Positions 45,881 to 64,000 of a stretch of DNA of 64,000 nucleotides are shown piece by piece (the first letter of the stretch is position 1; every line of letters starts with the position of its first letter). The position numbers and the translations under genes are program-made. The stretch is from Acidipropionibacterium thoenii DSM 20276 (GTDB lineage Bacteria > Actinomycetota > Actinomycetes > Propionibacteriales > Propionibacteriaceae), in contig NZ_AUHZ01000005.1 of NCBI RefSeq assembly GCF_000423445.1, forward strand, positions 62,001 through 126,000, written 5' to 3'. The notes beneath the pieces are model-generated. The model was not told the DNA's origin. It saw nothing but the letters and a program-made list of their open reading frames with translations, and made no database searches.

Positions 45881-45929
45881 CTGAATCGAAGTTTACAAGG
45901 GCAACAGGGTGCGGGCTCAACCATCGATT

Positions 45930-46021
45930 TGCCAGCCGGCAGGCAGCATCGTCCTGCCACATGGGTGGCAAGAGCGGTTGCCAGCCAACCGCTCGGCGCA
46001 GCTTGCCTGCCCGGTGGCAGG
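45930..46021. promoter_or_regulatory. Operator cluster between the PRD regulator and the PTS operon
   Basis: The divergent spacer (45881-46155) contains a cluster of dyads. TGCC-N4-GGCA occurs at 45930-45941 and, with longer arms CCTGCC/GGCAGG, at 46006-46021. TGCCAC/GTGGCA is at 45955-45970. A 9-bp dyad GAGCGGTTG/CAACCGCTC lies at 45972-45994. These are likely binding sites for the PRD regulator and overlapping promoters. Confidence 0.6.
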
Positions 46022-46155
46022 AACGCAACTGTGCGTCACTGCTTGTGACGGGCACCATCCTGTTGCAGACCGAAGGCACCCCCCGGCCACGCCGGGCCGA
46101 GGTGAGCACGGGGGCACAGCCGCCCCCATGCTGCAGAAGGAAAGGAGCAACCGGG

Positions 46156-47214: not shown

Positions 47215-47220
47215 AGAGTC

Positions 47221-47523
47221 ATGGCTAACGAAGTTAAAATCCTTATCGCCTGCGGATCAGGAATTGCGACCTCCACGGTCGCTCAGGAGAAGGTCAAGGA
47301 GATCCTCAAAGAGGCAAAGATTCCGGCCAAGATCACCAAGGGTACCGTGGGCCAGTTGGCCGCCCTCCAGGACAGCGTCGACGTGATCATGCTCACCACT
47401 CGCTATGGCAAGCCCCTGACCAAGCCGATGGTTCAGGTCTTCGGACTCATCTCAGGGATCAATGAGGATGCCATCAAGCAGGAGATCGTCGACACCTGTC
47501 GAAAAGTGATCGAAGAGTCCTGA
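47221..47523 (+). CDS. PTS galactitol-type IIB component
   Basis: A 100-residue EIIB of the galactitol family. The phosphocysteine is in IACGSGIATSTVA, near residue 11. It takes phosphate from IIA and passes it to the polyol during transport through IIC. It starts six bases after the dehydrogenase stop and is followed by IIC. Confidence 0.92.
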   Translation: MANEVKILIACGSGIATSTVAQEKVKEILKEAKIPAKITKGTVGQLAALQDSVDVIMLTTRYGKPLTKPMVQVFGLISGINEDAIKQEIVDTCRKVIEES

Positions 47524-47547
47524 TCCCCTGAAAGGGAAACAATAATC

Positions 47548-48804: not shown

Positions 48805-48892
48805 TTTAGGTGTCTCGGCCGGCTCCCATGGTCAAAGGGATCGTGGGAGCTGGTCAGATACTCTTCGTACCATGGCAGGAGTTTTCACAACT

Positions 48893-49369
48893 ATGAGTGA
48901 CCTTATTGGGCCCGAACTGGTTCATGTCGGCGTCGAGGTGGCGAGTCGCGACGAGCTTCTCTCCCTCATGGCAGGGCGGCTTCAGGCGAATGGAAGGACA
49001 AGAGAGACCTTCCTTCAAGGGCTCATCGATCGGGAAGCCAATTACCCCACTGGGCTTCCCATTAATGGTGGTGTGGCCATACCGCACACCGATCCCGAGC
49101 ATGTCATCAATGATTCGGTCTCCATCGCCACCCTCTCCACGCCGGTGGGGTTCCAGGAGATGGCGGGGACTGACGACAGCGAGATCCCTGTGGACGTCGT
49201 GATCATGCTGGCTCTTGGTGGCGCAGAGAATCACTTGGACGTGCTCCAACAGATCATCGGATCGATTCAGGACGCGGAGTTCATGGCGTCCTTGAGGGCG
49301 TCGACCTCGCCGTCCGAGATCGCAGCGCTGGTGAAGGCCAAGCTCGGGCTGGCTCGACCGAGCCTCTAG
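48893..49369 (+). CDS. PTS fructose/galactitol-type IIA component
   Basis: A 158-residue EIIA with the phosphohistidine in GGVAIPHTDPEHV. It receives phosphate from HPr and donates it to IIB. ATG 48893 is preceded by AGGAG at slightly long spacing; an ATG seven codons upstream (48872) has none. It sits at the end of the PTS part of the operon. Confidence 0.88.
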   Translation: MSDLIGPELVHVGVEVASRDELLSLMAGRLQANGRTRETFLQGLIDREANYPTGLPINGGVAIPHTDPEHVINDSVSIATLSTPVGFQEMAGTDDSEIPVDVVIMLALGGAENHLDVLQQIIGSIQDAEFMASLRASTSPSEIAALVKAKLGLARPSL

Positions 49370-49416
49370 AATTGCAGGAGTGGCACTGCCGCCACCAGGA
49401 CAGGAAAAGGACACCG

Positions 49417-50991
49417 ATGTCAGCAGAAGCACGCAGCTCCGAGGGCCCCCTGGTGGTGGCCATCGACTCCTCGACCACGTCCACCAAGGCGATCGTCGTC
49501 GACGTCGATGGGAATGTCTGGGAGACCGCCAAGCGGGAGATCCAGCTCCACACCCCCGCGATGGACCAGTACGAGCACAACCCGATCCGGTGGTGGGAGA
49601 CCTCCCGCGACACCATCGGCGAGGTGCTCTCCCGACTCACCCCCGCCGACCGACAGCGGGTCGCCGCGATCGGCATCACCCAGCAGCGCGAGTCCTTCGC
49701 CCCGTTCGCCGCAGACGGCACCCCGTTGCGCAACGGGATCCTGTGGCTGGACGGCCGGGCCACCGACCAGATCCGCCGCTACGGCACCGAGCATGTCCAC
49801 GAGCTGTCCGGCAAGCCGGCCGGCGTCACCCCCGCCATCTACAAGATGACCTGGGTCAAGGAGAACGAGCCCGGGGTCCTGGAGAAGGCCGACAAGATCA
49901 TCGACGTCGGCGGCTACATCTCCTTCAACCTCACCGGCCGGTGGGCCACCTCGGAGGCCTCCGCCGACTCACTGGGCCTGTTCGACATCGAGGACCGGTC
50001 CTGGGCCGAGGAGCTGCTCGAGATCGCAGGGGTCCGCCGCGACCAGATGGCCGACCTGGTCCCCCCTGCCCAGCCGATCGCCGACCTTCGCCCCGAACTC
50101 GTCTCGCAGTGGGGCCTGCCCGGCCCGATCCCGGTGGTGGCCGGCCTGGGCGACGGCCAGGCCGCCGGCATCGGCGCCGCCGCCATCAACCCCGAGATCG
50201 CCTACCTCAACCTCGGCACCGCGGTGAACGCCGGCGTCGAGTCGCCGACCTACGCCTACGACTCTGGGGTGCGCACGCTGGTCTCCGGAATCCCCGGCGA
50301 GTACGTCTTCGAGGTACTGCAGTCCTCCGGTTCATATCTGGCCGGCTGGTTCCGGGAGGCGCTGGGCGACCCGAAGCTGTTGGGCGCTCCCGACCCGGCC
50401 CTGGACGCCGCGGCGGCCAGCATCCCGCCGGGCTGCGAGGGCCTCATCACGCTGCCCTACTGGAACGCGGTGCAGTCGCCCTTCTGGAACCCGGTGGCCC
50501 GCGGGGCCGTCGTCGGATGGCGCGGCACCCACTCGCGAGCCCACATGTACCGCTCCATCCTGGAGTCCATCGGCTTCGAGATGCGCGCCAATCTCGACTC
50601 CATCGAGCGTCGCACCGGCGTCAGGATCACCACTCTGCGCGCGATGGGTGGCGGCACCCGTTCCACGCTCTGGCGACAGATCATGTCCGACACCGCCGGT
50701 CTGCCGATCACCACCTGCGTCCAGGACGAGATCTCGGCCCTGGGCGCCGCGGTGCTGGCGATGGCCGCGATCGGCGCCCATGGCTCCCACGACGTCGCCA
50801 CCTCCGCGACCGCGATGGCTCATTTCGGTGAGACCACCGAACCCGACACCTCGCTGCACGACCAGTACAAGGACGTCGCCGCGGTCCAGCGCCGCCTCTA
50901 CCCGCAGCTCCAGGACGTCTTCGAGGACCTCCACATCCTCAGTGAGCGCTACCCCAGCACGAAACCGGAGTCGCCGAAGGTGGAGAGCTGA
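49417..50991 (+). CDS. FGGY-family carbohydrate kinase
   Basis: A 524-residue ASKHA sugar kinase of the FGGY family. The phosphate-1 loop is AIDSSTTSTKAIVVD, and the C-terminal domain has GLGDGQAAGIGAA and the FGGY-type GGGTRSTLWRQIMSDTAGLPI. It is nearer to xylulokinase-like members than to glycerol kinase by eye; the substrate is unknown. It follows the PTS genes by 47 bp and precedes a GpsA-like dehydrogenase, and would phosphorylate a sugar or polyol that enters unphosphorylated. ATG 49417 follows AAAAGGA. Confidence 0.88.
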   Translation: MSAEARSSEGPLVVAIDSSTTSTKAIVVDVDGNVWETAKREIQLHTPAMDQYEHNPIRWWETSRDTIGEVLSRLTPADRQRVAAIGITQQRESFAPFAADGTPLRNGILWLDGRATDQIRRYGTEHVHELSGKPAGVTPAIYKMTWVKENEPGVLEKADKIIDVGGYISFNLTGRWATSEASADSLGLFDIEDRSWAEELLEIAGVRRDQMADLVPPAQPIADLRPELVSQWGLPGPIPVVAGLGDGQAAGIGAAAINPEIAYLNLGTAVNAGVESPTYAYDSGVRTLVSGIPGEYVFEVLQSSGSYLAGWFREALGDPKLLGAPDPALDAAAASIPPGCEGLITLPYWNAVQSPFWNPVARGAVVGWRGTHSRAHMYRSILESIGFEMRANLDSIERRTGVRITTLRAMGGGTRSTLWRQIMSDTAGLPITTCVQDEISALGAAVLAMAAIGAHGSHDVATSATAMAHFGETTEPDTSLHDQYKDVAAVQRRLYPQLQDVFEDLHILSERYPSTKPESPKVES

Positions 50992-51081
50992 GCCGCCACC
51001 ACCACCGAGCCGCAGCCCCCTCGGCGTCCGCCGGGGGTGCTGCGCGAGACTGGACCGGATACTCACGAAAGGACATCATCA

Positions 51082-52125
51082 ATGCCGATCTTCACCGTCC
51101 TGGGAGCCGGTGCCATGGGCACCGCTCTCTGCAAGCCCTGGGTCGAAGCGGGCTGGGAGGTCCACCTGTGGGGCACCTGGCTCGACGACCACCTGCTGGA
51201 CGCCGTCGAGGCCGGCCGCCCCCATCCGCGGATCAAGGTCCCTGCCGCACCGGGGATCAAGACCTTCCGCTCCGGCCAGCTGGCCGAGGCGCTGGCGGGA
51301 GCCGATGTCGTCGACATCGCCGTCACCTCGGAGGGGCTGCCGAAGGTCACCGAGATGGCCCTGGAGCACATCGACGGTCTGCGGGCGCTGTGCCTGACCG
51401 CCAAGGGGTTCTGGACCGATCCGGAGGGCAGGATCCAACTGCTGCCCGATGCCATCCGTTCGATCGCCGACAGCAAGGGGGTCTCACTGCCCCCGTTGGT
51501 CGCCATCGGTGGTCCGGTCAAGGCCAATGAGTGCGCCGCCGGCGAGGTGACCGCCACCACCTACGCCTCCCTCGATCTGTCGGTCGCCGAGGCGCTGGCC
51601 CGCGAGGCCGCCACCGAGACCTACGGCATCCGGCCCAGCGATGACGAGATCGGGGTGGAGCTGTGCGCCGCGTTGAAGAATGTCTACGCCATCTCCCTGG
51701 GCATCGCCGACGGGCTCGGCGAGGCCACCGGGGTGCCGCGCCACAACCTCAAGGCCGCCGCCTTCGCCCAGGCGGTCCGAGAGATGTCGCTACTGGTGTC
51801 GGCGGCCGGGGGTAAGGCCGAGACCCCCTACGGACTGGCCGGGGTCGGGGATCTGGAGGTCACCGGGCTGTCGGGCCGCAACAAGCTCTACGGCGTCCGG
51901 CTCGGCAAGGGGGAGACGCCGGACGGCGCATTGGCGGAGATGAACCGGCTGGAGCAGACCGTGGAGGGCTACCCGGCCGCACCTCTGGCGGTCGCCTTCG
52001 CGCATCAGTTCGGGGCCGATGAGCAGGAGCTGCCGCTGCTGCACACGGTCGCCCGGATCCTGCGGGGCGGGGTCGACGACGTCTACTCGGCGGTGGCTGC
52101 CGCCGTGAAGCCCGTCAAGCCCTGA
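51082..52125 (+). CDS. GpsA-family NAD(P)-dependent glycerol-3-phosphate-like dehydrogenase
   Basis: A 347-residue member of the GpsA family. The Rossmann loop is FTVLGAGAMGTAL, the catalytic lysine is expected in VELCAALKNVYAISLGIADGL, and GPVKANECAAGEVTA replaces the usual GPSFA-type loop. That variation, and a location beside an FGGY kinase, argue for a specialised polyol-phosphate dehydrogenase instead of the housekeeping phospholipid enzyme. ATG 51082 follows GAAAGGA. It is the last gene of the unit and ends at a strong hairpin. Confidence 0.82.
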   Translation: MPIFTVLGAGAMGTALCKPWVEAGWEVHLWGTWLDDHLLDAVEAGRPHPRIKVPAAPGIKTFRSGQLAEALAGADVVDIAVTSEGLPKVTEMALEHIDGLRALCLTAKGFWTDPEGRIQLLPDAIRSIADSKGVSLPPLVAIGGPVKANECAAGEVTATTYASLDLSVAEALAREAATETYGIRPSDDEIGVELCAALKNVYAISLGIADGLGEATGVPRHNLKAAAFAQAVREMSLLVSAAGGKAETPYGLAGVGDLEVTGLSGRNKLYGVRLGKGETPDGALAEMNRLEQTVEGYPAAPLAVAFAHQFGADEQELPLLHTVARILRGGVDDVYSAVAAAVKPVKP

Positions 52126-52156
52126 CGATTCCTGTCCGCCGGCCAGGCGGGCCGTC

Positions 52157-52197
52157 GGACACCACCGCCGGGACCCGTCCGGCGGGCGGTGGTGTCC
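52157..52197 (+). terminator. Terminator after the polyol operon
   Basis: GGACACCACCGCC (52157-52169) and GGCGGTGGTGTCC (52185-52197) form a perfect 13-bp stem with a 15-nt loop, extended by outer GGGCC/GGCCC. It starts about 30 bp after the GpsA-like stop. Confidence 0.75.
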
Positions 52198-52625
52198 GGC
52201 CCGGTCGCGGGTCGGCCAGAGCTGTCGACCCGCACCGGCCGGCTTGATTCGGTTCCGGGTCGTGCTAAGGCTCCCGGTCCGGCCGGTGCCGCCATTCCGC
52301 GTCTCTCAACGTGTCATGGCCGGCGCAGAGGTGTCTCCGTCGAGGTCCGCGAGGGCTCCGGAACGTCCAACTGGGGGCGCTTCTCGTCAATCCTCGCGGA
52401 TTGTTATCAATTCGTGACAAACCCGTCTCAATCGCGCTACGGGCAGCGTTCTCTCTGCTCAGGGCCATCTCCGCAGTCCCTGGCGACCGCCCTGGCGAGA
52501 AATGTTGCGGTGGTGCGGGGAGTCACCACTGGCAACGTTGTCATAAATGTGATCGGATGACTCCGGGCCACAACCCGGTGACCCCAGGGGCCGTGGTGCT
52601 CCGATACACGCAAGGAGAACCAAGG
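52198..52625 (+). promoter_or_regulatory. Promoter region of the mannose-type PTS operon with a LacI-type operator
   Basis: A 430-bp spacer without a gene, relatively AT-rich at about 52385-52440. TGGCAACGTTGTCA at 52530-52543 fits the LacI/GalR pattern TGNNANCGNTNNCA exactly and lies 83 bp before the first PTS gene. The regulator is probably the LacI-family protein encoded at the end of the same gene string. AAGGAG at 52612 is the ribosome-binding site of IIA. Confidence 0.6.
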
Positions 52626-53063
52626 ATGGTTGCTCTGGTCATCGCCGCACACGGCGAAATGGCCCCGGCACTGCTGGCCTCCGCCGAGATGATCGCCGGC
52701 CCCTCAGAAGATGTGAGAGCCGTCACCTTCTCGAAGTCGGAGGGGCCGGATGACCTTCTCAAGAAGTATGAGGAGGCAAGTCAGGAACTCGGCTCCGATG
52801 TCCTCTTCCTGGTCGATCTGTTCGGCGGGAGCCCGTTCAACGCAGCGGCGCGCTTCGCGGCCGCTCACCCCGGCACGGACGTCGTCACCGGCGTCAACCT
52901 GCCGATGCTCGTCGAGGTCCTGATGAGCCGGGCCGTGCTCACCGACGTTCCGGCGCTGGTGCAGCAGGCCCGCACCTCCGGTACCTCCGGAGTGCGCACG
53001 TTCAGCGATATGAACACCACCTCGGCCAGCGATGCCGAGGACGATGAAGGAGATGAACTCTGA
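52626..53063 (+). CDS. PTS mannose-family IIA component
   Basis: A 145-residue EIIA of the mannose (Man) family. The phosphohistidine is in VIAAHGEMAPALLASA near residue 9, and VLFLVDLFGGSPFNAAAR is the family second motif. The acidic C-terminal tail is unusual but short. The stop overlaps the IIB start by one base (TGATG). Confidence 0.93.
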   Translation: MVALVIAAHGEMAPALLASAEMIAGPSEDVRAVTFSKSEGPDDLLKKYEEASQELGSDVLFLVDLFGGSPFNAAARFAAAHPGTDVVTGVNLPMLVEVLMSRAVLTDVPALVQQARTSGTSGVRTFSDMNTTSASDAEDDEGDEL

Positions 53064-53554
53064 TGAACATCAAGTTGCTGCGCATCGACTCCCGGTTGAT
53101 CCACGGTCAGATCGCGAACAACTGGGTCAACACGGTGGGCGTCCAGACCATGATCGCGGTCTCGGACCAGGCTGCCCATGATGACATCCGCAAGACCCTG
53201 CTGCTGCAGGTCGGCAAGGAGAACACGAAGACCTTCGTGCTCGACCTCGCCAAGATGATGAGGGTCTACAACAACCCGAAGTACAAGGACCTCGACGCCC
53301 TCGTCGTCGTGGAGTCCCCCCAGGACGTCATCCGGCTGATGGACGCCGGACTGCCCGTCGACAAGGTCAACGTCGGTGGTATCACCTACCGCGAGGGGAT
53401 GACCCGGGTCACCGAGTCGGTCTCCGTCGGCCCCGCCGAGATCGAGGCCTTCCAGGAGCTCGACAAGCGTGGGATCAAGCTCGAGGTCCAGCAGGTCCCC
53501 TCCAGCTCCCGCGCCAACATGATGGACAAGCTCCGCTCCGCGAAGCTCATCTAG
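53063..53554 (+). CDS. PTS mannose-family IIB component
   Basis: A 163-residue EIIB. The phosphohistidine is in RIDSRLIHGQIANNWV near residue 14, and GLPVDKVNVGGITYREGM is family-typical. It transfers phosphate to the sugar during transport through IIC and IID. Coupled to IIA by overlapping codons. Confidence 0.94.
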   Translation: MNIKLLRIDSRLIHGQIANNWVNTVGVQTMIAVSDQAAHDDIRKTLLLQVGKENTKTFVLDLAKMMRVYNNPKYKDLDALVVVESPQDVIRLMDAGLPVDKVNVGGITYREGMTRVTESVSVGPAEIEAFQELDKRGIKLEVQQVPSSSRANMMDKLRSAKLI

Positions 53555-53570
53555 GACGGGAGATCAGCAG

Positions 53571-54386
53571 ATGTCTGCAGTTCAGATGATTCTCGTCATC
53601 CTGGTGGCCCTGGTCGCCGGTATGGCCAGTGTGCTCGATGAGCGTCAGTTCCACCGTCCCCTGGTGGCCTGCACCCTGATGGGTCTGGTCCTCGGTGATC
53701 TTCACACCGGCGTCATCCTCGGTGGCTCCCTGGAACTCATCGCCCTCGGCTGGATGAACGTCGGCGCCGCGATGGCCCCGGACGCCGCGCTGGCCTCCAC
53801 GATCTCCGCGGTCGTCGTCATCTCCAGTGGTCAGGGGGTCGCGGAGGGCATCGCGATCGCCGTCCCGCTGGCCGCCGCCGGCCAGGTGCTGACGATCTTC
53901 GTCCGTACCATCAATGTGTTCTTCCAACATCAAGCCGACAACTTCGCGGCGAAAGCCAACTTCAGAGGCGTCGAGTTGATGCACTTCACGGCCCTGCTTT
54001 TGCAGGGTCTGCGAGTGGCCATCCCGACCGCCGTGGTGGCCGCCGTCTCCGGCACCAATGCGGTCAAGAACGCCCTTGACGCGATCCCCGATGTGGTCAC
54101 CGGTGGCCTTCAGGTGGCCGGCGGATTCATCGTCGTCGTCGGCTACGCCATGGTCATCAACATGATGCAGGCCAAGGCCCTCATGCCCTTCTTCTTCCTG
54201 GGCTTCGTGGTGGCCTCGTTCACCGACTTCAACCTGGTCGGCCTGGGCATCATGGGCGCCTGCCTCGCCGTGATCTATGTGCAGCTCAACCCGCTGTACC
54301 ACAACCAGATCAAGATGCCCGCTGCCGCCACCGGCGGAGGCGGATCAGCCGCTCTCGATGACGATCTCGACGACGAGCTGGACTGA
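53571..54386 (+). CDS. PTS mannose-family IIC component
   Basis: A 271-residue membrane subunit of a Man-family transporter with about seven hydrophobic segments. It has the typical LVALVAGMASVLDERQF start and LGGSLELIALGWMNVGAAMAPDAALAS, the conserved part that lines the sugar path. It ends in an acidic tail (DDDLDDELD). It begins 16 bases after IIB. Confidence 0.93.
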   Translation: MSAVQMILVILVALVAGMASVLDERQFHRPLVACTLMGLVLGDLHTGVILGGSLELIALGWMNVGAAMAPDAALASTISAVVVISSGQGVAEGIAIAVPLAAAGQVLTIFVRTINVFFQHQADNFAAKANFRGVELMHFTALLLQGLRVAIPTAVVAAVSGTNAVKNALDAIPDVVTGGLQVAGGFIVVVGYAMVINMMQAKALMPFFFLGFVVASFTDFNLVGLGIMGACLAVIYVQLNPLYHNQIKMPAAATGGGGSAALDDDLDDELD

Positions 54387-54397
54387 GGAGGACACCC

Positions 54398-55255
54398 ATG
54401 ACTACAGACACTGTTCCCGAGACCAGCGAGGCTCCCGTCGGGGCGCTCACCAAGAAGGACTACCGGTCGATCTACCTCCGGTCCACCTTCATGCTGGGAT
54501 CGTTCAACTTCGAGCGCTTCCAGGCGATCGGGGTGGCGGTCTCGCTGATCCCCTCGATCAAGCGGTTCTACCCTGACAAGCACGATCAGGCCGAGGCCCT
54601 CAAGCGGCACCTGGAGTTCTTCAACACCCATCCGTGGATCGCCTCGCCGATCTTCGGCGTCGTCTCGGCGATGGAGGAGCAGAAGTCCAAGGGCGAGCCC
54701 ATCCAGGACGCCGACGTCACCAACGTCAAGATCGGTCTGATGGGGCCACTGGCCGGCGTCGGCGACCCGATCTTCTGGGGCACCGCCCGACCCGTGCTCG
54801 CGGCTCTCGGCGCCTCGATGGCGGTCACCGGATCGGTCGTCGGACCCCTGCTGTTCTTCGTCGTCATCAACATCATCCGGATGCTGACGCGCTGGTACGG
54901 CTTCAAGCTCGGCTACGAGCGCGGCACGGCCATCGTCTCCGATCTCGGAGGTGGCCAGCTCAAGAAGCTCACCGCCACCGCCTCGGTGCTCGGCCTGTTC
55001 GTGATGGGCGCCCTGGTGTCCAAATGGACGACGATCAACTTCCCGCTGGTCATCTCCCGGTACAAGGGAAGTGACGGCAAGGAGGTGGTCACCACCCTGC
55101 AGAGCATCCTGGACTCCCTGCTGCCAGGCCTGGTCGCCCTGCTGCTGACCTTCCTGTGCATGTGGATCCTCAAGAAGAAGGTCAACCCGATCTGGATCAT
55201 CTTCGGCATGTTCGCCGTCGGTATCCTGGGCTACTGGACCGGATTCCTCGGCTGA
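54398..55255 (+). CDS. PTS mannose-family IID component
   Basis: A 285-residue IID subunit. The N-terminal half is cytoplasmic with LTKKDYRSIYLRSTFMLGSFNFER and the conserved GLMGPLAGVGDPIFWGTARP; the C-terminal half has four or more hydrophobic segments. Together with IIC it forms the channel. The sugar transported is not evident; family members take mannose, glucose, sorbose, N-acetylgalactosamine and others. Confidence 0.94.
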   Translation: MTTDTVPETSEAPVGALTKKDYRSIYLRSTFMLGSFNFERFQAIGVAVSLIPSIKRFYPDKHDQAEALKRHLEFFNTHPWIASPIFGVVSAMEEQKSKGEPIQDADVTNVKIGLMGPLAGVGDPIFWGTARPVLAALGASMAVTGSVVGPLLFFVVINIIRMLTRWYGFKLGYERGTAIVSDLGGGQLKKLTATASVLGLFVMGALVSKWTTINFPLVISRYKGSDGKEVVTTLQSILDSLLPGLVALLLTFLCMWILKKKVNPIWIIFGMFAVGILGYWTGFLG

Positions 55256-55276
55256 GGCCCCTGCGGGACGCTGCTG

Positions 55277-55312
55277 ACCGGGTCCCGGTGCCGATACGCA
55301 CCGGGGCCCGGT
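55277..55312 (+). terminator. Hairpin between IID and the HAD gene
   Basis: ACCGGGTCCCGGTGC (55277-55291) pairs over 15 bp (one G-U) with GCACCGGGGCCCGGT (55298-55312), loop CGATAC. It probably lowers expression of the downstream HAD, unknown and lacI genes relative to the transporter. Confidence 0.65.
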
Positions 55313-55379
55313 TCAGCCCTGGCCCCCATCACTTCATTCCACCACGATCCCGGCACCGAGGCCGGGGGACTGAGGCCCC

Positions 55380-56153
55380 ATGAGAACCGTGCTTGCCACC
55401 GACCTTGACGGAACAGTGGTCTTCGAGGACGGGGTCCACCCCGCCGACCGGGAGGCGCTGGCGACCTGGAAGAGGTCCGGGAACATCCTGGTGCTGGACA
55501 CCGGCAAGTCCGTCGATGCCGTGCGGCTCGTCTGGCACGACGCCGGGATGCCCACCCCCGACTTCGTCATCGCCTTCACCGGATCTGTCATCACTGACGG
55601 TGATCTCAGGCCGCTCGCGGTGACCGCGCACCAGCAGGGCCTGCTCGACGACATCGCCGCTCTGGTGGAGGGCGAGCAGTTGGTGCTCTACGCCTCCGAT
55701 ATCGAGCATGACTACGTCGTCTTCTCCCGGGTGGCCCAGACCTCCTCGATCGTGCCGCGGGCCTACCCCGGCGACCTCGACAGACTCCGACACACCGAGC
55801 TGTTCGGCATTCCGCTGTTCATTCCCGACCCGTCGGTGATGAGCCGGGTCGAACCTGCTCTACGAGAACTGTGCGACGGGCGGGCCGAGGTGCACCGCAA
55901 CCAGAACTTCCTCGATGTCGTGCCCCCGGGAGTCTCCAAGGGGGCCGGCCTGCGACGTGTTCTCGACGAGTTCGCTCCCGGACACGGCGACGTATACTCC
56001 ATCGGCGACTCATGGAACGACCTGTCCATGCACGAGGTCGCCGACCACCCCATCACGTTGACCGACTCGCCGGCGCAGGTGCGGGCGCAGTGCGAGGGCA
56101 GCGTCGACTGCGCCGCCCAACTCATCGACCGGATTCTCAAGGAGCAGCAATGA
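55380..56153 (+). CDS. HAD-superfamily hydrolase, Cof-like (IIB subclass)
   Basis: A 257-residue phosphatase. Motif I is LATDLDGTVV (nucleophile Asp), motif II is the FTGS segment, and motifs III/IV are KGAGL and SIGDSWNDLSMHE. Type IIB HADs hydrolyse sugar phosphates, so it may relieve sugar-phosphate stress or complete the pathway served by the mannose-type PTS. ATG 55380 is near a weak ribosome-binding site. Confidence 0.9.
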   Translation: MRTVLATDLDGTVVFEDGVHPADREALATWKRSGNILVLDTGKSVDAVRLVWHDAGMPTPDFVIAFTGSVITDGDLRPLAVTAHQQGLLDDIAALVEGEQLVLYASDIEHDYVVFSRVAQTSSIVPRAYPGDLDRLRHTELFGIPLFIPDPSVMSRVEPALRELCDGRAEVHRNQNFLDVVPPGVSKGAGLRRVLDEFAPGHGDVYSIGDSWNDLSMHEVADHPITLTDSPAQVRAQCEGSVDCAAQLIDRILKEQQ

Positions 56154-56596
56154 TGGCCATCATGGGCGACAAGGAGGACCGCCTCAGCAAGGAGGAGCGG
56201 CGCGCGGCCGCGGCCGAGTGGGTGCGCGGCGAGTACGGCCCCGGCGGATACACCTACGGGGTGAGCAAGCTGGTCACCGGACTGATGGTGCTCAGCGGGG
56301 TCCTCTACCTGCTCAGCCCGTGGGCCATGGCAGTGTGCCTGGCCGTCGCCATCATGGCGATCCTGGGACGCCGGATGCTGGAGCGTCAGGCGACCGGTGA
56401 TTTCTCGGACCTGGCCGAGGCGAAGAAGCAGTACAACCGGAGCCGCAACGGCGAGTACCTGGACTTCATCGTGGCCCGTTGCACGCAGATGCTGCGCGAC
56501 AACAAGGCGCTGCGTCCCGAGAGCAAGAAGGCGGTCTCCGACTATCTCGACTGGGCGGAGCGGCGACAGGCAGGCAACGCCCGGAAGGGTCGCTGA
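56150..56596 (+). CDS. Small membrane protein of unknown function
   Basis: A 148-residue protein with a charged N-terminus (DKEDRLSKEERRAAAAEW), two close hydrophobic segments at about 39-74 and a soluble charged C-terminal half (TQMLRDNKALRPESKKAVSDYLDWAERR). It overlaps the HAD stop (AATGATG), so it is coupled and likely belongs with this unit. Start codons at 56150 and 56153 are both in frame after AAGGAG. No family recognised. Confidence 0.7.
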   Translation: MMAIMGDKEDRLSKEERRAAAAEWVRGEYGPGGYTYGVSKLVTGLMVLSGVLYLLSPWAMAVCLAVAIMAILGRRMLERQATGDFSDLAEAKKQYNRSRNGEYLDFIVARCTQMLRDNKALRPESKKAVSDYLDWAERRQAGNARKGR

Positions 56597-56599
56597 CCG

Positions 56600-57646
56600 G
56601 TGGCCCCTCGCGGCACCCGTCGTCCCACGATTCGCGACGTCGCGCAGCTGGCCGGTGTGTCGATCAAGACGGTCTCGCGGGTGATCAACCAATCTCCCGA
56701 GGTGGCTCCCAAGTCCCGCACCCGGGTCGAGTGGGCGATCCACGAACTCGACTTCACCCCCAATGTCGCCGCGGCCGGTCTCCGGCGGAGCGACCGGTTG
56801 ACGCGTAGCATCGCGGTGGTGGCCCAGGACCTGGGCAACACCTTCTCCTCCCAGCTGCTGAGGTCGATGGAGCGCTCGGACTTCCTCAAGGACGTCGCGC
56901 TGCTGGCGGCCAGCCTCGACGAGGAGCCCGAGCGGGAGCGTCGGGTGGTCAAGGACCTGGTGGCCCATCAGGTGGACGGCCTGGTCCTGGTGCCGACCCT
57001 GGCCGACCAGTCCTATCTGCAGAGGGTGGTGGATTCCGGACTGGCGGTGGTCTGTGTGGACCGCCGGCCCCGAGGTCTGGCGGTCGATTCCGTCACCACC
57101 GACAACTGGCTCGGCGCGCACATCGCGACCGAGCACCTCATCTCCTCGGGGCACCGGCGGATCGCCTTTCTCGGTGATCTCACATCCATCGAACCGTCCC
57201 AGGATCGGTTGGCCGGATACCTCGACGCGATGCGCGAGGCCGATTGCCCGGTCGACCGTGGGCTGGTCTGCACCGGGGTGCGTACGCCGAGCGACGGCCG
57301 CCAGGCCCTCCAGGCTCTCATCGACTCCCGGAAGTCCTTCACCGCCGTCCTGGTCTGTCGCAACGACCTCACCATCGGCGCCCTGGAGGCCCTTCAGCGC
57401 AACGGACTTCAGCACACCGTGGCCCTCGTCGGTTTCGACGACATGCCGATGGCCCCATTGGTCGACCCGCCGTTGACCGTGGTGCGCCAGGAGATCGACC
57501 AGCTCGCCAGGGCGACCGTGACCTGCCTGGCGGAGCGGATGCGCGGCTGCTCCCTGCCCGCCCGCGACATCGTCGTCCGGCCCACTCTGCTGCGCCGCGG
57601 ATCCGGGGAGATCCCGGCCTCCCGTTTCGGCACCCTGCGGGCCTGA
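56600..57646 (+). CDS. LacI-family transcriptional regulator
   Basis: A 348-residue LacI/GalR repressor. The helix-turn-helix and hinge are TIRDVAQLAGVSIKTVSRVIN at about 10-30; the periplasmic-binding-like effector domain has VDGLVLVPTLAD and TAVLVCRNDLTIGALEAL, with VALVGFDDMPMAPLVDPPLT near the end. It is the last gene of the PTS string and probably acts on the dyad TGGCAACGTTGTCA upstream of the PTS IIA gene. The effector is likely a sugar or sugar phosphate of that pathway. Confidence 0.9.
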   Translation: MAPRGTRRPTIRDVAQLAGVSIKTVSRVINQSPEVAPKSRTRVEWAIHELDFTPNVAAAGLRRSDRLTRSIAVVAQDLGNTFSSQLLRSMERSDFLKDVALLAASLDEEPERERRVVKDLVAHQVDGLVLVPTLADQSYLQRVVDSGLAVVCVDRRPRGLAVDSVTTDNWLGAHIATEHLISSGHRRIAFLGDLTSIEPSQDRLAGYLDAMREADCPVDRGLVCTGVRTPSDGRQALQALIDSRKSFTAVLVCRNDLTIGALEALQRNGLQHTVALVGFDDMPMAPLVDPPLTVVRQEIDQLARATVTCLAERMRGCSLPARDIVVRPTLLRRGSGEIPASRFGTLRA

Positions 57647-57872
57647 GGGTCCGGTCTCTCCCTGCTGTCCGTCCGCCGGGATCGACGCCCGCAGGCTTCC
57701 GCTGAGGCGTCTCGATCCGGCAGCGCGACTCCCCACTGGACAACCCCCCGCCCTGCAGGCGTAGCCTCGTCATCGGTCCTACCTACGGATACGTAACCAA
57801 CAAGTAACGACTCGGTTGCGGCCGATCGCACCGATCTCACGGTGCCCCGGCCATTCTCAGGAGGAGGGTTTC

Positions 57873-60800
57873 TTGAGACTTCAAGTGCAGCCAGCGGCCT
57901 CGCCGCTCCACGGATACCTGGACATCCCCGTCTCGAAGTACCACGTCCACCGCGCTCTCATCCTCGCCGCGCTCGCCGACGGGCGGAGCCGGATCAGGGG
58001 CGTCTCCACCACCCGTCAGGTCGGCTGGACGATCGACGCGCTGCGGGCGCTCGGCGTCGGCATCGAGCAGCGCGGCGACGCGTACATCGTCGACGGCTGC
58101 GCCGGGCGGCCCCGGCTCACCGACTACCAGCACGCCGGCACCGACGCCCCCCACGGACTGATCGACGTCGGCTCCTCGGGCACCTCCCTCTACTTCCTCG
58201 TCGGACTGGTCAGCCTGGCCGACCGCCCGGTCACCGTCACCGGCATGAAGTACCTGCGCAACCGCCCCATCGAGGCCCTGCTGCGGGCGCTGCTCCAGAT
58301 GGGCGTGAGCCTCCAGACGCTGCACGAGGACTGGCGGCTGCCGGTGAGGGTCGAGCCCCACCGGCCCTCCGGCGGCCACGTCGAGATGCCCGGGACGCTC
58401 TCCCAGTGGCTCTCGGGGGTGCTGCTGCTGGCCCCCTTCGCCACCTCGGACACCACCGTCCACATCACCGGCGGGCCCCTCAAGGAGCGCACCTATGTGG
58501 AGCTCACCATCACGATGATGGCTCGCTGGGGGCTGCGGGTCGACCACGACGACGACTGGCTGACCTTCCACATCCCGGCCGACCAGAGCGCCCACCCCGC
58601 CCAGTACACGGTGCCCTCCGACATCGGCGCCTCGGCCTTCGGGGTCGCCGCCGCCGCGATCCACCCCTCCGACGTGCTGTTCCACGGTCAACGGGTGGTC
58701 CGCGGCTGCGAGACCGACCACCCCGAGGGGCACTTCCTCGACATCGCCCGGCAGATGGGGGTCGATCTCTTCCGGGACCCCGACACCGGCCTGGCTCGGG
58801 TGGTCAGCGACGGCTCCCCGCTGCGGCCCATCGAACTGGACTGCGGCACCGTCCCCGATCTTCTCCCGGTGCTCTCGGCGATGGCCTGCTTCGCCGAGGG
58901 CACCAGCCGGCTGTACAACGTGAGCCATATCCGGCTCAAGGAGACCGACCGGGTGGCAGCGATGCTGCAACTCAACAAGCTCGGCGCCCACCTGAGCCAA
59001 GGTGAGGACGAGTTGCGCATCACCGGCATCAGACAGCGCCCCGGTCCCGGCGCGGAGCACCTGCACGGCGCCGAGCTGTCCTCCTTCAACGACCACCGGG
59101 TGCTGATGTCGCTGGCGGTGGCCGCCACACGCGCCACCAGCCCCAGCACCCTCACCTATCCACGCGCCTACCGGATCTCGTATCCGACCTTTCTCGAGGA
59201 GATGCACCGCATCGGTATGAACATGTCCGTTGTTTCATCACAGAGCACCATCGGCGGCCCCGCTGGAGCCGCCGGCAGCACAGACAGCCCCCACACCCAC
59301 TCCGGCGCCGCACCGGCCCGGTCCAGGCGGGACTCCCGGCGGGACATCCCCGAGGGCCTCACACTGGCCAGCGAGGTGCTCACCGATCGGGTCCGTCGGC
59401 TCTCCATCGACCAGCCCGACGCCCCGGCCGTCATCGAGGTCGGCGACCCGACGCCGGTCACCATCAGCTGGTCCCAGCTCCAGGCCGAGGCCGACCAGGT
59501 CTCGATGGCCCTGCTCGACATGGGCGTGGTCAAGGGCGATGCCGTCGCCATCCAGGTCCCCAACTGGGTCGAGTTCGAGACGATCGCCGTCGGCGTCCTG
59601 CAGATCGGCGCCCTCATCACCCCGATCATGCCGGTCTTCGGTGCCCACGAGATCGCCAAGATCATCGGCATGTCGAGGGCCCGGGTCGCCTTCGTCACCG
59701 ACGAGTTCCGGCACCGTCACGGCCCGGCCGACCTGCTGGAGGCCGCCGAGGGGACCGACTTCCAGCTCGAGCACGTCGTCGTCGTCAACGCCGCCGACCG
59801 CCGCGGCCATCTGGCCCCGGCCGGATCCCGTCCGACAGCCCTGCCGGCGAGCCTGGTCTCCGATCCCCGCTCCCGGCAGTGGACCTGGAGCAGCTATCGC
59901 GAGGCGATCAGCGGACAGCAGCCGGACGCCGACCTGCTCGCCGCGTTGGCCCCCCATCCCCACGACCTCGCCGAGCTGCTGTTCACCTCCGGCACCACCG
60001 GTGATCCCAAGGGGGTCCAGCACGACCACCTCGGACCCGCCCTGGCCACCGCCCTGGAGATCGAGCACCTGGGTCTGGGCCCCGACGACCGGATCTACGT
60101 CCCCACCCCGATCGCCCACCAGACCGGCCTGCTCTACGGCGTCATGCTCGCCTGGCAGCTGGGGGTGGCCGCCGTCATCCAGCCCGTCTGGAATGTCGAC
60201 ATCGCCCTGGATCGGGCCTTCCCGAAGGCTCACGCCAGCTTCGTCCAGGCCGCCACGCCCTTCCTCGACGACCTCGTCGACGCGGTCCGCAACGGCGCCC
60301 CGGCCCCCGAGTCGCTGCGCATCTTCGTGGCCACCGGCGCCGCGGTGCCGCGGGCCCTGGCGCGTGGGGCGGCCGGCGTCCTGAACTGCTCGGTGCTGGG
60401 AGCCTTCGGCTCCACCGAGAGCTCACTGGCGGCGCTGGCCGCACCGACCGATGACCCGGCGCTGGCCCAGGGGGCCGATGGGAGAGCACTGCCCGGGATC
60501 CGGCTGAGGGTCACCGACGAGGACGGTGTGGTGCTGCCCACCGATCAGGAGGGCAACTTCGAGATCGACTCGCCGACCCTGTTCGTCGGCTACCTCGACC
60601 GTCCCGATCTCACGGAGCAGGCCTTCAGCCCGGACGGCTGGTTCCGCACCGGTGACCTCGCCCGCATCGACGAGAACGGCTACCTGCACATCACCGGGCG
60701 GGTCAAGGACATCATCAATCGCGGTGGTGAGAAGATTCCCGTCGTCGAGGTGGAGAACCTGCTCTACCAGCACCCCGGGCTGGCCGATGTCGCTGTCGTC

Positions 60801-61040
60801 GCGATGCCCGACGCCCGGCTGGGCGAGCGGGCCTGTGCCTTCGTGGTCGCCGCCGACGGGGTCGAGGGGCCCACCTTCGCGCAGATGCAGAAGTACCTGC
60901 TCGATCACGGCCTGTCCAAGTACTACTGGCCGGAGCGCCTGGAGTACCTCGACGCACTGCCGCGCAACACGGTGGGCAAGATCCAGAAGAACATCCTGCG
61001 TGAGAAGGCCAGGCATCTCACGGTGGAACGGAAGCACTGA
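57873..61040 (+). CDS. EPSP-synthase-like domain fused to an acyl-CoA ligase
   Basis: A 1055-residue bifunctional protein. Residues 1-442 have the AroA fold: PVSKYHVHRALILAAL with Lys-22 and Arg-27, GSSGTSLYF, VPSDIGASAF, Asp-329 in TVPDLLP, RLKETDR (356-360) and FNDHR (405-409). Two phosphoenolpyruvate contacts of true EPSPS are replaced: the Arg-124 equivalent is Tyr-107 and the Lys-411 equivalent is Ile-435. A Ser/Pro-rich linker (443-494) leads to an ANL acyl-CoA ligase with FTSGTTGDPKG (704-714), GAFGSTES, WFRTGDLARI, GRVKDIINRGGEKI and the C-terminal lysine in GKIQKN (Lys-1036). The TTG start at 57873 follows AGGAGGAGG. EPSPS-like and ligase genes occur in known cyclohexanecarboxyl-CoA clusters of Streptomyces; here they are one gene. 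Role inferred: activation of shikimate as a CoA thioester and elimination of water. Confidence 0.9.
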   Translation: MRLQVQPAASPLHGYLDIPVSKYHVHRALILAALADGRSRIRGVSTTRQVGWTIDALRALGVGIEQRGDAYIVDGCAGRPRLTDYQHAGTDAPHGLIDVGSSGTSLYFLVGLVSLADRPVTVTGMKYLRNRPIEALLRALLQMGVSLQTLHEDWRLPVRVEPHRPSGGHVEMPGTLSQWLSGVLLLAPFATSDTTVHITGGPLKERTYVELTITMMARWGLRVDHDDDWLTFHIPADQSAHPAQYTVPSDIGASAFGVAAAAIHPSDVLFHGQRVVRGCETDHPEGHFLDIARQMGVDLFRDPDTGLARVVSDGSPLRPIELDCGTVPDLLPVLSAMACFAEGTSRLYNVSHIRLKETDRVAAMLQLNKLGAHLSQGEDELRITGIRQRPGPGAEHLHGAELSSFNDHRVLMSLAVAATRATSPSTLTYPRAYRISYPTFLEEMHRIGMNMSVVSSQSTIGGPAGAAGSTDSPHTHSGAAPARSRRDSRRDIPEGLTLASEVLTDRVRRLSIDQPDAPAVIEVGDPTPVTISWSQLQAEADQVSMALLDMGVVKGDAVAIQVPNWVEFETIAVGVLQIGALITPIMPVFGAHEIAKIIGMSRARVAFVTDEFRHRHGPADLLEAAEGTDFQLEHVVVVNAADRRGHLAPAGSRPTALPASLVSDPRSRQWTWSSYREAISGQQPDADLLAALAPHPHDLAELLFTSGTTGDPKGVQHDHLGPALATALEIEHLGLGPDDRIYVPTPIAHQTGLLYGVMLAWQLGVAAVIQPVWNVDIALDRAFPKAHASFVQAATPFLDDLVDAVRNGAPAPESLRIFVATGAAVPRALARGAAGVLNCSVLGAFGSTESSLAALAAPTDDPALAQGADGRALPGIRLRVTDEDGVVLPTDQEGNFEIDSPTLFVGYLDRPDLTEQAFSPDGWFRTGDLARIDENGYLHITGRVKDIINRGGEKIPVVEVENLLYQHPGLADVAVVAMPDARLGERACAFVVAADGVEGPTFAQMQKYLLDHGLSKYYWPERLEYLDALPRNTVGKIQKNILREKARHLTVERKH

Positions 61041-61069
61041 TGACCAGTCAGGACATGAAGGGGAACGCC

Positions 61070-62242
61070 ATGATGAGCGACACAGAGTTCACGGCCCTCA
61101 GGACCGAGATCGCCGAATGGGTCGCGGGCCCCGGCGAGGAGTGGTCCCAGCGCATCGAGAGCAGCGGCGCGGTCCCCCAGGAGTTGGTCGACGAGCTGCG
61201 CGGCCATGGCTGGATGTCCCTGGCGGCACCCGAGGAGCTGGGCGGCCGTGGCGTCGGGTTCGAGAGGTTCCTGGAGCTGATGGAGTACTTCTCCCGGCTG
61301 CACGCCTCGATCCGGATGCTGGTGCACGTCAACAATGGCATCTGGCGCGCCCTGGTCGACTACGTCGACGACCAGCAGCGCGAGCAGATCCTCATCCCCA
61401 CCGTCAAGGGGGACAAGCGGATCGCCTTCACCCTCACCGAGGCCGACTCCGGCACCGGTGCCGACATCCGCACCACTCTGCGCCGCGAGGGCGACGTCTA
61501 CTACATGAACGGCGAGAAGCACCTCATCACCTTCGGGATGACCTGCGACTACTGGCTGCTCACCGCCCGCCTGGAGGGCACCACCGGCCACGACGGCACC
61601 GTCGCGCTTCTGGTGCCGAACACCGGACTGCCCGGGGTCGAGCTCATCGACGACTCCCAGACGATGGGGATCGCCGGCACCGACCACGCGATCATGCACT
61701 TCCACGACGTCCCGGTGCCGGTCTCGGCGCGGGTCGGCCAGGAGGGCCAGGGACTGGCCGTGGCCCTGGGCGGTTTCCTGCTGCCCAGCAGGATCTCGGT
61801 GGCGATGAGCTGTGTCGGTCTGGCCGAGCGGGCCCAGCAGCTCGCGGTGGAGTACGCCCAGCAGCGGGTGACATTCGGCAAGCCGCTGGCGAAGCGCCAG
61901 GCCATCCAGTTCCTGCTGGCTCGCAACCATGCCTCGATCCTGGCTGCACGGTCCCTGGTCCTGGAGGCCGGACGGGGCTACCAGGCCGGCCGTCCGGATG
62001 CTGGCGCACTGTCCAGCGCGGCGAAGATGACCGCCGTCGATATGCTTGCCGAGGTGACCGACAACGCCCTGCAGGTCTTCGGCGGGCGCGGCTACTTCAA
62101 GCGAGAGACCATCGAGCGGGTCTACCGCGATGCCCGTGCCCAGCGGTTCGAGGAGGGCACCAATGAGATCCAGTCCCTCATCGTCGCCCGCTCCGTGCTG
62201 GACGGCACCGCCCGCTACGCCGACGACGTCCCGGTGGCCTGA
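61070..62242 (+). CDS. Acyl-CoA dehydrogenase family flavoprotein
   Basis: A 390-residue FAD enzyme of the acyl-CoA dehydrogenase fold. N-terminal helices carry AAPEELGGRGVGFERFLELMEYFSR, the middle domain FTLTEADSGTGADIRT, and the C-terminal domain QQRVTFGKPLAKRQAIQFLLA and QVFGGRGYFKRETIERVYRDAR. The catalytic glutamate is in the FEEGTNEIQ segment. ATG 61070 follows GAAGGGGA; an ATG at 61040 that overlaps the previous stop is also possible. In the proposed pathway it would oxidise or isomerise a cyclohexenyl-CoA intermediate. On sequence alone a fatty acyl-CoA role cannot be excluded. Confidence 0.88.
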   Translation: MMSDTEFTALRTEIAEWVAGPGEEWSQRIESSGAVPQELVDELRGHGWMSLAAPEELGGRGVGFERFLELMEYFSRLHASIRMLVHVNNGIWRALVDYVDDQQREQILIPTVKGDKRIAFTLTEADSGTGADIRTTLRREGDVYYMNGEKHLITFGMTCDYWLLTARLEGTTGHDGTVALLVPNTGLPGVELIDDSQTMGIAGTDHAIMHFHDVPVPVSARVGQEGQGLAVALGGFLLPSRISVAMSCVGLAERAQQLAVEYAQQRVTFGKPLAKRQAIQFLLARNHASILAARSLVLEAGRGYQAGRPDAGALSSAAKMTAVDMLAEVTDNALQVFGGRGYFKRETIERVYRDARAQRFEEGTNEIQSLIVARSVLDGTARYADDVPVA

Positions 62243-62373: not shown

Positions 62374-63273
62374 ATGACTGAGCAGAACACCGAGAACAAC
62401 AATGTCGTGGTGATCACCGGGGGCTCCCGCGGGATCGGCCGCGAGCTGGCGCTGCGACTGGCCGCCCACGGCGACCGTCTGGTGCTCAACTACAAGAAGA
62501 ACGCCGAGATGGCCGAGCGCACCCTCGCCGATGTCCGGGCCGCCGGCGGCGACGGGATCACCGTCCAGGCCGATATCGAGACCGTCGAGGGGATCGAGAA
62601 GCTCTTCGACACGGTGGCTGCGAGCTACCCGACGATCACCGGTTTCGTCTCCAATGCCGCCGCCAGCGCCTTCAAGCCGGTCGACGGGATCAAGGCCCTG
62701 CACTTCGAGCGCGGCTTCAACATGAACGTCCGCCCCCTGGTGCTGGGTGCCGAGCGGGCCGCGGCCATGATGCCCCACGGTGGACGGATCCTGGCGGTCA
62801 CCAGCTACGGTTCCCAGCGGGCCTTCCCGACCTACGCCCTGCTGGGCGCCGCGAAGGCCGCCGAGGAGGCCTTCGTGCGCTACATGGCCGTCGAGTACGG
62901 CCCGCGCGCCATCACCGTCAACGCGGTCAACGGCGGGCTCATCGACACCGACTCGCTGGACTTCTTCTACAACCGGGTGCCGGGGATGGCTCCGGTGCAG
63001 TCGGTGATCGACAAGATCCCGCTGCGCCGGCCCGGCAAGGCCGCCGACATGGCGGCGGCGATGGAGTTCCTGCTGTCGGCCAACGCCGGCTACATCACCG
63101 GTCAGGTGCTCAACGTGGACGGCGGGATCACCGTCGTCGCCCCGCCCTACTGGGCCGACACCAGCTCTCCGCTGCGAGACGCCGTGCTGCCGGCGGACTC
63201 GGCCGTCACGATGCCCAGCTACGGGGCCGACGGGGACTCCGGCGATGCCTCGGGAGAGGCTCCCCGGAGCTGA
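62374..63273 (+). CDS. SDR enoyl reductase, FabL/ChcA-like
   Basis: A 299-residue short-chain dehydrogenase. The NADPH loop is VVITGGSRGIGREL, the NAA motif is FVSNAAASAFKPV, and the catalytic pair is Tyr-154 and Lys-161 separated by six residues (Y-x6-K), the enoyl-reductase spacing of FabL-type enzymes instead of the Y-x3-K of ketoreductases. AITVNAVNGGLIDTDSLDFF follows. ChcA, the 1-cyclohexenylcarbonyl-CoA reductase of Streptomyces, is an SDR of comparable size. The last ~35 residues are low in complexity. The stop overlaps the next start (TGATG). Confidence 0.87.
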   Translation: MTEQNTENNNVVVITGGSRGIGRELALRLAAHGDRLVLNYKKNAEMAERTLADVRAAGGDGITVQADIETVEGIEKLFDTVAASYPTITGFVSNAAASAFKPVDGIKALHFERGFNMNVRPLVLGAERAAAMMPHGGRILAVTSYGSQRAFPTYALLGAAKAAEEAFVRYMAVEYGPRAITVNAVNGGLIDTDSLDFFYNRVPGMAPVQSVIDKIPLRRPGKAADMAAAMEFLLSANAGYITGQVLNVDGGITVVAPPYWADTSSPLRDAVLPADSAVTMPSYGADGDSGDASGEAPRS

Positions 63274-64000
63274 TGACCGATCCGCTGACGAGCTGGCGGC
63301 TCGGCCCTCTGGAGGTGCCCAACCGAGTACTGATGGGCAGCATGCACACCGGTTTCGAGCGGGACGGCGAGCGGCTGGCGGCCTTCTACACCGAGCGGGT
63401 GCGCGGCGGGGCCGGGCTCATCGTCACCGGCGGCTACGCCGTCGAGGGGCGCGGCCGTTCGGTGCCCGATGACATCGTGCTCGGCGACCCCGCCCTCGAC
63501 CCCCCGCTGCGACGGTCGGTCGAGGCGGTGCACGCCGCCGGCGGGCTGATCGCCGTCCAGCTCTTCCATGCCGGTCGCTACTCGGCCGGGCTCCCCGACG
63601 CCGACGGCGTGCCGGTGCCCCCGGTGGCTCCCTCCCCGGTGGCCTGGCGGGCCGCCCGCGGAGTCGTGCCCGTGCAGATGAGCGAGGCCGACATCGCCGA
63701 GACCCTGCGCAGCTACGCCCGCGCCGGCGCCCATGCCGAAGAGCTCGGCTACGACGCCATCGAGATCTCAGCCTCCGAGGGCTACCTCATCAACGCCTTC
63801 TGCTCCCCACTGACCAATCTGCGCCAGGATGCCTGGGGCGGGGACGCCCACCGGCGTCGCCGATTCGCCCGCGAGGTGGTCTCCGCGGTGCGCGCCGCCA
63901 CCGGACTGCCGCTGATCGCGCGGATCTCCGGCGATGACCTGATGACCGGATCGTCCACCCGCCAGGAGGTCCTGGACCTGGCCGAGGAGGTGGTGGCGGC
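63273..64000 (+). CDS. 2,4-dienoyl-CoA reductase/Old Yellow Enzyme family, 5' part
   Basis: The frame starts ATG 63273 (overlapping the SDR stop) and is open to the window edge, about 242 codons. It matches the FMN TIM-barrel of FadH-type dienoyl-CoA reductases: VPNRVLMGSMHTGFERDG, RLAAFYTERVRGGAGLIVTGG, AVQLFHAGRYS and ISASEGYLINAFCSPLTNLRQDAWGGD. FadH also has an iron-sulfur cluster and a second flavin in its C-terminal half, which would lie outside the window. It fits reduction of a cyclohexadiene-carboxyl-CoA. Truncated only by the window edge. Confidence 0.88.
   Translation, partial: MTDPLTSWRLGPLEVPNRVLMGSMHTGFERDGERLAAFYTERVRGGAGLIVTGGYAVEGRGRSVPDDIVLGDPALDPPLRRSVEAVHAAGGLIAVQLFHAGRYSAGLPDADGVPVPPVAPSPVAWRAARGVVPVQMSEADIAETLRSYARAGAHAEELGYDAIEISASEGYLINAFCSPLTNLRQDAWGGDAHRRRRFAREVVSAVRAATGLPLIARISGDDLMTGSSTRQEVLDLAEEVVA

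Follow-up and report, generated by a model that had tools for sequence, protein, structure and literature searches.

The window analysed here, a stretch of 64,000 nucleotides from Acidipropionibacterium thoenii DSM 20276, contains a gene (57873..61040, + strand) that encodes, in one open frame of 1055 amino acids, an EPSP synthase (EPSPS)-like domain fused to a CoA ligase of the AMP-binding (ANL) type. Its TTG start codon at 57873 is preceded by the ribosome-binding site AGGAGG (57859..57864, + strand), read directly from the DNA, and given this start a longer mechanical open reading frame from 57816 is superfluous. The EPSPS-like domain, supported by PF00275, TIGR01356 and an AlphaFold model, extends over residues 10-449 (57900..59219, + strand); PF00275 matches the fusion protein in Pfam at residues 10-444 with 254 bits, while TIGR01356, the NCBI equivalog model for AroA, gives the domain 304.5 bits against a cut-off of 287.25. 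There follow an interdomain linker (59220..59372, + strand), predicted to be disordered and variable in length among relatives (alignment A3), and the ANL acyl-CoA ligase domain (59412..60980, + strand), with the Pfam families AMP-binding and AMP-binding_C matching at residues 514-1036. The ligase motifs LLFTSGTTGDPKG, GRVKD and the C-terminal lysine of GKIQK are present and mostly invariant in relatives and, judged by its sequence, this half of the fusion is intact. Among all NCBIfam models the window ligase is matched best by TIGR03208 (cyclohexanecarboxylate-CoA ligase), at 393 bits and below that family's cut-off of 792 bits. The same model is the best NCBIfam match of all five ligases scanned (393-536 bits against the 792-bit cut-off); the clade ligase differs from the TIGR03208 family in being fused, in most members, to the EPSPS-like domain.

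A preliminary description of this DNA had reported the fusion, and indeed a single frame from 57873 to 61040 carries PF00275 followed by AMP-binding and AMP-binding_C. An origin by chance or through faulty assembly is ruled out by fused frames of ~1000 amino acids in independent genera and at 16 loci of the Streptomycetales. With a dN/dS of ~0.20 against an 89%-identical relative, the EPSPS-like domain is, on this measure, under purifying selection.

The final base of the fused gene is, from the sequence of the junction, the first base of the start codon of the next gene, which encodes an acyl-CoA dehydrogenase (ACAD) family protein (61040..62242, + strand) with the catalytic Glu position present in FEEGTNE. 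Downstream lie a short-chain reductase (SDR; 62374..63273, + strand) of the enoyl-thioester reductase type, closest to FabL and with a Y-x6-K motif, and the start of an OYE/2,4-dienoyl-CoA-reductase-like flavoprotein (63273..64000, + strand) of 673 amino acids, whose gene continues beyond the window (whole gene L004:7274-9295) and which matches E. coli 2,4-dienoyl-CoA reductase (FadH, 1ps9) with 358 bits. Genes of the CoA ligase, enoyl-CoA reductase and dienoyl-CoA reductase types are all together in this operon. An upstream LacI gene, considered as a further member, was set aside for lack of conservation among the first loci compared.

The gene order fusion, ACAD, SDR, OYE/2,4-dienoyl-CoA-reductase-like protein is kept in most of the fused loci examined, and the conserved block occurs in Propionibacteriaceae, Streptomyces and others. 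The identity matrices of the four operon parts are correlated at r = 0.91-0.97 over 20 loci, with 0 of 999 permutations as high, as would be expected under joint inheritance. No OYE was detected nearby in L088 and L092, and in L091 and L093, which are second copies in Streptomyces genomes with the full operon, no ACAD, SDR or OYE was detectable nearby; the latter two adjoin a crotonyl-CoA carboxylase/reductase-type gene (TIGR01751 in L093, a similar sequence in L091). Elsewhere a class-II DAHP synthase lies directly upstream (L084, L085), FabF-like ketosynthases lie downstream (L049, L080, L081, L087, L088), FabH-like proteins are encoded upstream (L089, L092) and a modular PKS adjoins the locus (L048). 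Because of these neighbours of its relatives, the unit seems to make a shikimate-derived acyl-CoA starter. Such genes for shikimate supply and starter use, present at the loci of relatives, were not seen in the window. The domains, the conserved neighbours and the co-varying identities support the coupling to a CoA ligase proposed in the preliminary description, and the gene context is consistent with chemistry on CoA-bound compounds derived from shikimate.

When 392 genomes from the order to which G437 belongs, taken as the Streptomyces order, were scanned with a profile of the domain, 16 loci in 14 genomes scored 684-764 bits, all of them in frames of 997-1193 amino acids, and the next best score was 220 bits; the clade is sharply separable from ordinary AroA by this profile. 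It was present in 7 of the 197 Propionibacteriaceae genomes sampled and, within the window's genus, in only 2 of 5 sampled genomes. Four genomes of another class of the phylum contain a stand-alone version of 439-441 amino acids, which adjoins a separate CoA ligase gene (with an 8-base overlap in L102) and then an ACAD and an SDR; this unfused adjacent pair would be the two-gene form expected among the relatives of a fusion. In one genome of a further family (G233) a ketosynthase gene lies downstream of the fused form. In the tree the clade has a support of 100/100 and a long stem; it splits into a fused and an unfused group, the former weakly supported (78/51). A search of plasmids for clade members already named returned none, the best match having 32% identity, and the aroA copies of Streptomyces plasmids, considered as possible members, fall in a different cluster.

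The 2.94 Mb assembly carries three EPSPS-fold proteins: the window protein, an HTH-MurA protein on contig C5 and a canonical AroA. The gene for the last, a second aroA whose presence elsewhere in the genome had been raised as a check, was found on contig C10 (G000:C10; TIGR01356, 351 bits), where it overlaps an rsgA-like frame.

Residues of the EPSPS-like active site were assigned from an alignment with E. coli EPSPS, from a comparison of 17 clade members with 42 AroAs and, after addition of the four unfused relatives, from 21 members, all with concordant results. Invariant in 21/21 clade members (E. coli numbering) are K22, R27, G96, R124, S170, Q171, Y200, D242, D313, K340, E341, R344, D384, H385 and R386; they include the equivalents of Lys-22, Arg-27, Asp-313, Glu-341, Arg-344 and Arg-386, which had been correctly reported as present. 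Positions that are fixed or nearly so in AroA and changed in 21/21 members are S23 (Tyr), N26 (His), R100 (Tyr), S169 (deleted), S197 (Glu), I203 (Leu), Q271 (His), E351 (Gln), C408 (Ala) and K411 (Ile). The D49 position is His or Gln in the clade, and that of E240 is Pro in fused and Ser in unfused members. The main changes are beyond chance, because they are fixed in each clade member while the opposite residue is fixed in 42/42 AroAs, and because of the low dN/dS. Several of the larger differences between the window protein and AroA (S23 to Tyr, S197 to Glu, deletion of Ser-169, D49 to Gln/His and E240 to Pro) had been missed by the preliminary description.

That description had read Tyr-107 as the equivalent of Arg-124 and Ile-435 as that of Lys-411, and had taken both lost residues to bind PEP. 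The second equivalence stands, with Ile-435 (59175..59177, + strand) at a position that is Ile in 21/21 clade members and Lys in 42/42 AroAs. The first is ruled out by every alignment: Tyr-107 (58191..58193, + strand), within GSSGTSLYF, aligns with E. coli GNAGTAMRP and replaces Arg-100, whereas Arg-124 is retained as Arg-131 (58263..58265, + strand), within RNRPIEAL, which aligns with E. coli KERPIGHL. In an active-site model of tobacco EPSPS the phosphate of shikimate 3-phosphate (S3P) is held by the equivalents of K340, R100 and S197 together with the backbone of S170, and that of PEP by the equivalents of E341, R124, D49 and T97; tobacco Arg-105, equivalent to Arg-100, binds the S3P phosphate and tobacco Arg-131, equivalent to Arg-124, the PEP phosphate (PMC12256929), the tobacco-to-E. 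coli equivalences being assigned here by order and spacing. Only Lys-411 of the two lost residues is a PEP-site residue, and Arg-100 is a contact of the S3P phosphate.

Among the contacts of the S3P phosphate (R100, S169/S170, S197 and K340), S170 and K340 are kept, whereas in 21/21 members R100 is Tyr, S169 is deleted and S197 is Glu, the last being Glu-205 of the window protein (58485..58487, + strand; Ser in 42/42 AroAs). Tyr-23 (57939..57941, + strand) replaces Ser-23 in the same all-or-none manner (Tyr 21/21, Ser 42/42). The alignments thus place the strongest change clearly in the 3-phosphate pocket, with one arginine lost and one glutamate gained. The set of PEP contacts is itself incomplete, K411 being Ile in 21/21 members and D49 His or Gln; the contacts K22, G96, R124, Q171, D313, E341, R344, H385 and R386 are invariant, and the PEP site is changed at K411 and D49 and otherwise retained. 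The dismantling of the 3-phosphate pocket points to unphosphorylated shikimate as the likely substrate. Of the earlier suggestion that a shikimate site has been reused, there survives an altered site distinct from that of the organism's own AroA; the argument from two lost PEP contacts does not, as most PEP contacts are invariant.

An AlphaFold model of the EPSPS-like domain, built from a 17-member alignment, reached a pLDDT of 89.8 and a pTM of 0.90. Its best PDB matches are S3P-bound EPSPS structures, with TM scores of 0.85/0.89 to E. coli EPSPS (1g6s), and structures of the open form match it less well. Thus the window protein shares with EPSP synthase, in addition to R27 and the PEP contacts listed above, the fold; what sets the clade apart, besides its residue changes, is fusion or adjacency to a CoA ligase and a branch of its own. 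In the full-length model (pTM 0.49) linker residues 455-496 are disordered (pLDDT < 50), and the two domains look flexibly tethered; because of these two features no channelling is claimed.

Ansatrienin-type and asukamycin-type antibiotics, like omega-cyclohexyl lipids, are built on cyclohexanecarboxyl-CoA as starter. This thioester reportedly arises from shikimate by a 1,4-conjugate elimination, after which reductions and dehydrations alternate (Floss, Moore, Reynolds and co-workers; Moore and Floss 1994). Shikimate is also the reported origin of omega-cyclohexyl fatty acids (De Rosa 1972, cited in PMC3035248). To our knowledge, the enzyme of the first step from shikimate to cyclohexanecarboxyl-CoA has not been biochemically defined. 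We infer, with a probability of roughly 0.6, that the fusion is the entry enzyme of a route from shikimate to an acyl-CoA with a reduced six-membered ring, most likely cyclohexanecarboxyl-CoA or cyclohexene-carboxyl-CoA, which would serve as a starter for lipids or polyketides.

In the proposed mechanism an EPSPS-fold domain without its 3-phosphate pocket (Arg-100 to Tyr, Ser-197 to Glu, Ser-169 deleted and, nearby, Ser-23 to Tyr) would bind unphosphorylated shikimate, with Glu-205 and Lys-356 occupying the former position of the phosphate, and the 3-oxygen would be removed by 1,4-elimination, the EPSPS acid/base residues Lys-22, Asp-313 and Glu-341 having been retained. The fused ligase would make the CoA thioester, and the remaining dehydrations and reductions would fall to the ACAD, the FabL-like reductase and the 2,4-dienoyl-CoA-reductase-like flavoenzyme. 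For the first step the obvious candidate is the EPSPS-like domain: no other part has a shikimate site, Glu-205 is at the centre of its rebuilt 3-phosphate pocket, and its acid/base residues are kept. The exact reaction of the domain is speculative, as is the order of ligation and elimination; the retention of Arg-27, which we take to be the contact of the shikimate carboxylate in EPSPS, leans weakly towards the free acid as substrate and hence towards an elimination that would precede CoA ligation.

Several observations count against an entry enzyme of this kind: the ligase, at 393 bits, stays below the 792-bit cut-off of its family, most PEP contacts are kept and are not obviously needed for a PEP-independent elimination, and L091 and L093 carry the fused gene with no ACAD, SDR or OYE detectable nearby. 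In a rival reading the domain would still move the enolpyruvyl group from PEP, but to a hydroxyl of unphosphorylated shikimate, converting it into a better leaving group, to be lost later as pyruvate. Nine invariant PEP-site residues (K22 to R386, listed above) and the confinement of the dismantled part to the S3P-phosphate pocket favour such an activation. It should be emphasized, however, that Lys-411 and Asp-49 of the PEP site are lost and that some other anion, for example a CoA phosphate, could be the ligand of the retained arginines; we know of no precedent for PEP-dependent activation of unphosphorylated shikimate, and consider it unlikely here.

A 1,4-elimination of H-6 and the 3-OH is chemically hard, and the corresponding step of chorismate synthase depends on reduced flavin; the flavin-dependent dehydrogenase could therefore be the eliminating enzyme instead, leaving to the EPSPS-like domain another ring step, for example an isomerization, or the passing of shikimate to the ligase. 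Some ACAD-family enzymes do catalyse non-oxidative eliminations or 1,4-redox steps, and the second and third NCBIfam matches of the window ACAD are to 3-sulfinopropanoyl-CoA desulfinase and cyclohexane-1-carbonyl-CoA dehydrogenase. The EPSPS acid/base set, however, is retained under selection, which suggests catalysis, and the copies in L091 and L093 have no nearby ACAD; this division of labour is doubtful, to about the same degree as the PEP-dependent route.

It could also be argued that the protein still works as an EPSP synthase, the second of the genome, joined to a ligase and merely feeding chorismate to a local pathway, as its TIGR01356 score exceeds the cut-off and the main catalytic residues are retained. 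The changes at R100, S197, S169 and K411 are fixed throughout the clade, however, the clade stands apart on its long, fully supported stem, a canonical aroA is present elsewhere in the genome and no chorismate-using gene was recognised in the block, making this very improbable. Least probable of all is an operon for the degradation of cyclohexanecarboxylate or a related ring acid, whose catabolic enzymes the ligase and dehydrogenase do resemble, since the DAHP synthase, ketosynthases and PKS adjoining relatives are biosynthetic, the block contains no recognised ring-cleavage gene and that route offers no role for an EPSPS-like domain.

A close known system for the proposed entry enzyme and its operon is the Streptomyces cyclohexanecarboxyl-CoA biosynthetic cassette of the ansatrienin cluster, reportedly described by Cropp in 2000 (cited in PMC10295569) and consisting, we presume, of ansJKLM-chcA-chcB. 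Compared by description rather than by sequence, the two would be expected to share a shikimate origin, CoA thioesters, an enoyl reductase and a PKS starter as product; they differ in that a chcB-type isomerase was not identified among the genes of the window operon and no PKS was recognised near it. Propionibacterium cyclohexanicum has omega-cyclohexyl fatty acids (PMC4190135). This producer, which shares the omega-cyclohexyl route with Alicyclobacillus, is a propionibacterium like the window organism, in whose own genome there is one FabH-type (KAS III) match, and a use of the product in lipids is possible there. We know of no omega-cyclohexyl lipids in Acidipropionibacterium.

The pathway and a Streptomyces gene cassette are already published, and the fused protein is probably present in published Streptomyces clusters, because it is common enough in that order; the apparently new elements are the argument, residue by residue, for a re-tooled EPSPS, the existence of unfused relatives and the systematic misnaming. 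We propose tentatively, at somewhat below an even chance, that an enzyme of the EPSPS fold has been adapted to remove the 3-oxygen from unphosphorylated shikimate, either directly or once PEP has driven an enolpyruvylation, in the first committed step to cyclohexanecarboxyl-CoA, and that an EPSPS subfamily with different chemistry would thus be accepted as ordinary AroA by the NCBI model. The subfamily offers a concrete, expressible candidate for this step, with a short list of residues and with natural unfused versions. Annotation will mislead, because the NCBI aroA model accepts every member scanned (6/6 above the cut-off); standard annotation would name the fusion an ordinary enzyme of aromatic amino acid synthesis. 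Genes labelled 'aroA' by the curated model therefore comprise some whose product is probably not an EPSP-forming enzyme, and this has a bearing on the prediction of pathways and on surveys of the target of glyphosate. The bacterium has a second, altered copy of that target enzyme, and the neighbours of the gene suggest that it may begin the conversion of shikimate into a ring building block for lipids or antibiotics.

In the window, the gene that encodes the fused EPSPS-like domain and CoA ligase is preceded by a run of sugar genes (43961-57646) comprising a PRD-type regulator, a zinc alcohol dehydrogenase, galactitol-type and mannose-type PTS components, a xylulokinase-like kinase and a LacI regulator, all of these names except LacI having been assigned by eye. 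A LacI gene beside the operon is not conserved in the loci of the relatives compared. A PF00275 search of the A. thoenii genome (G000) returned only one MurA-type protein (contig C5, 131520-132770; L003:1246-2796), which carries a HipB-like helix-turn-helix domain at its N-terminus.

Two genomes that contain the full operon, G715 and G935, also harbour a second copy of the fused gene (loci L091 and L093, respectively). Next to these copies are a gene of the crotonyl-CoA carboxylase/reductase type and one for a large, regulator-like protein, but no ACAD, SDR or OYE gene, and the copies may be parts of PKS clusters. In the unfused operon (L102) the usual place of the OYE-like gene is occupied by an F420-dependent LLM-class oxidoreductase (L102:4777-5793; TIGR03617, above cut-off), which may catalyse the same reduction. 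On a Streptomyces microflavus plasmid (L047:14932-24237) an adenylation-domain gene is flanked by two genes annotated aroA; these were rejected as members of this clade, outside which they fall. Apparent frameshifts in an Acidipropionibacterium MAG copy (L005:11182-11199, 13446 and 16397-16409) and in the G106 copy (L040:10125-10171) lie in the EPSPS domain, ACAD or OYE, and appear to reflect either sequencing error or decay.

Within the Propionibacteriaceae, G033 (L036) is the sole carrier of the operon among the genomes sampled from its genus; as a guess, it could be Propionibacterium cyclohexanicum, the known omega-cyclohexyl lipid maker. The copies from another genus of the family (L037, L038 and L039) were placed in the tree among those of the Streptomyces order, away from the deep branch of the window copy, which suggests that the two versions were acquired separately, by transfer.
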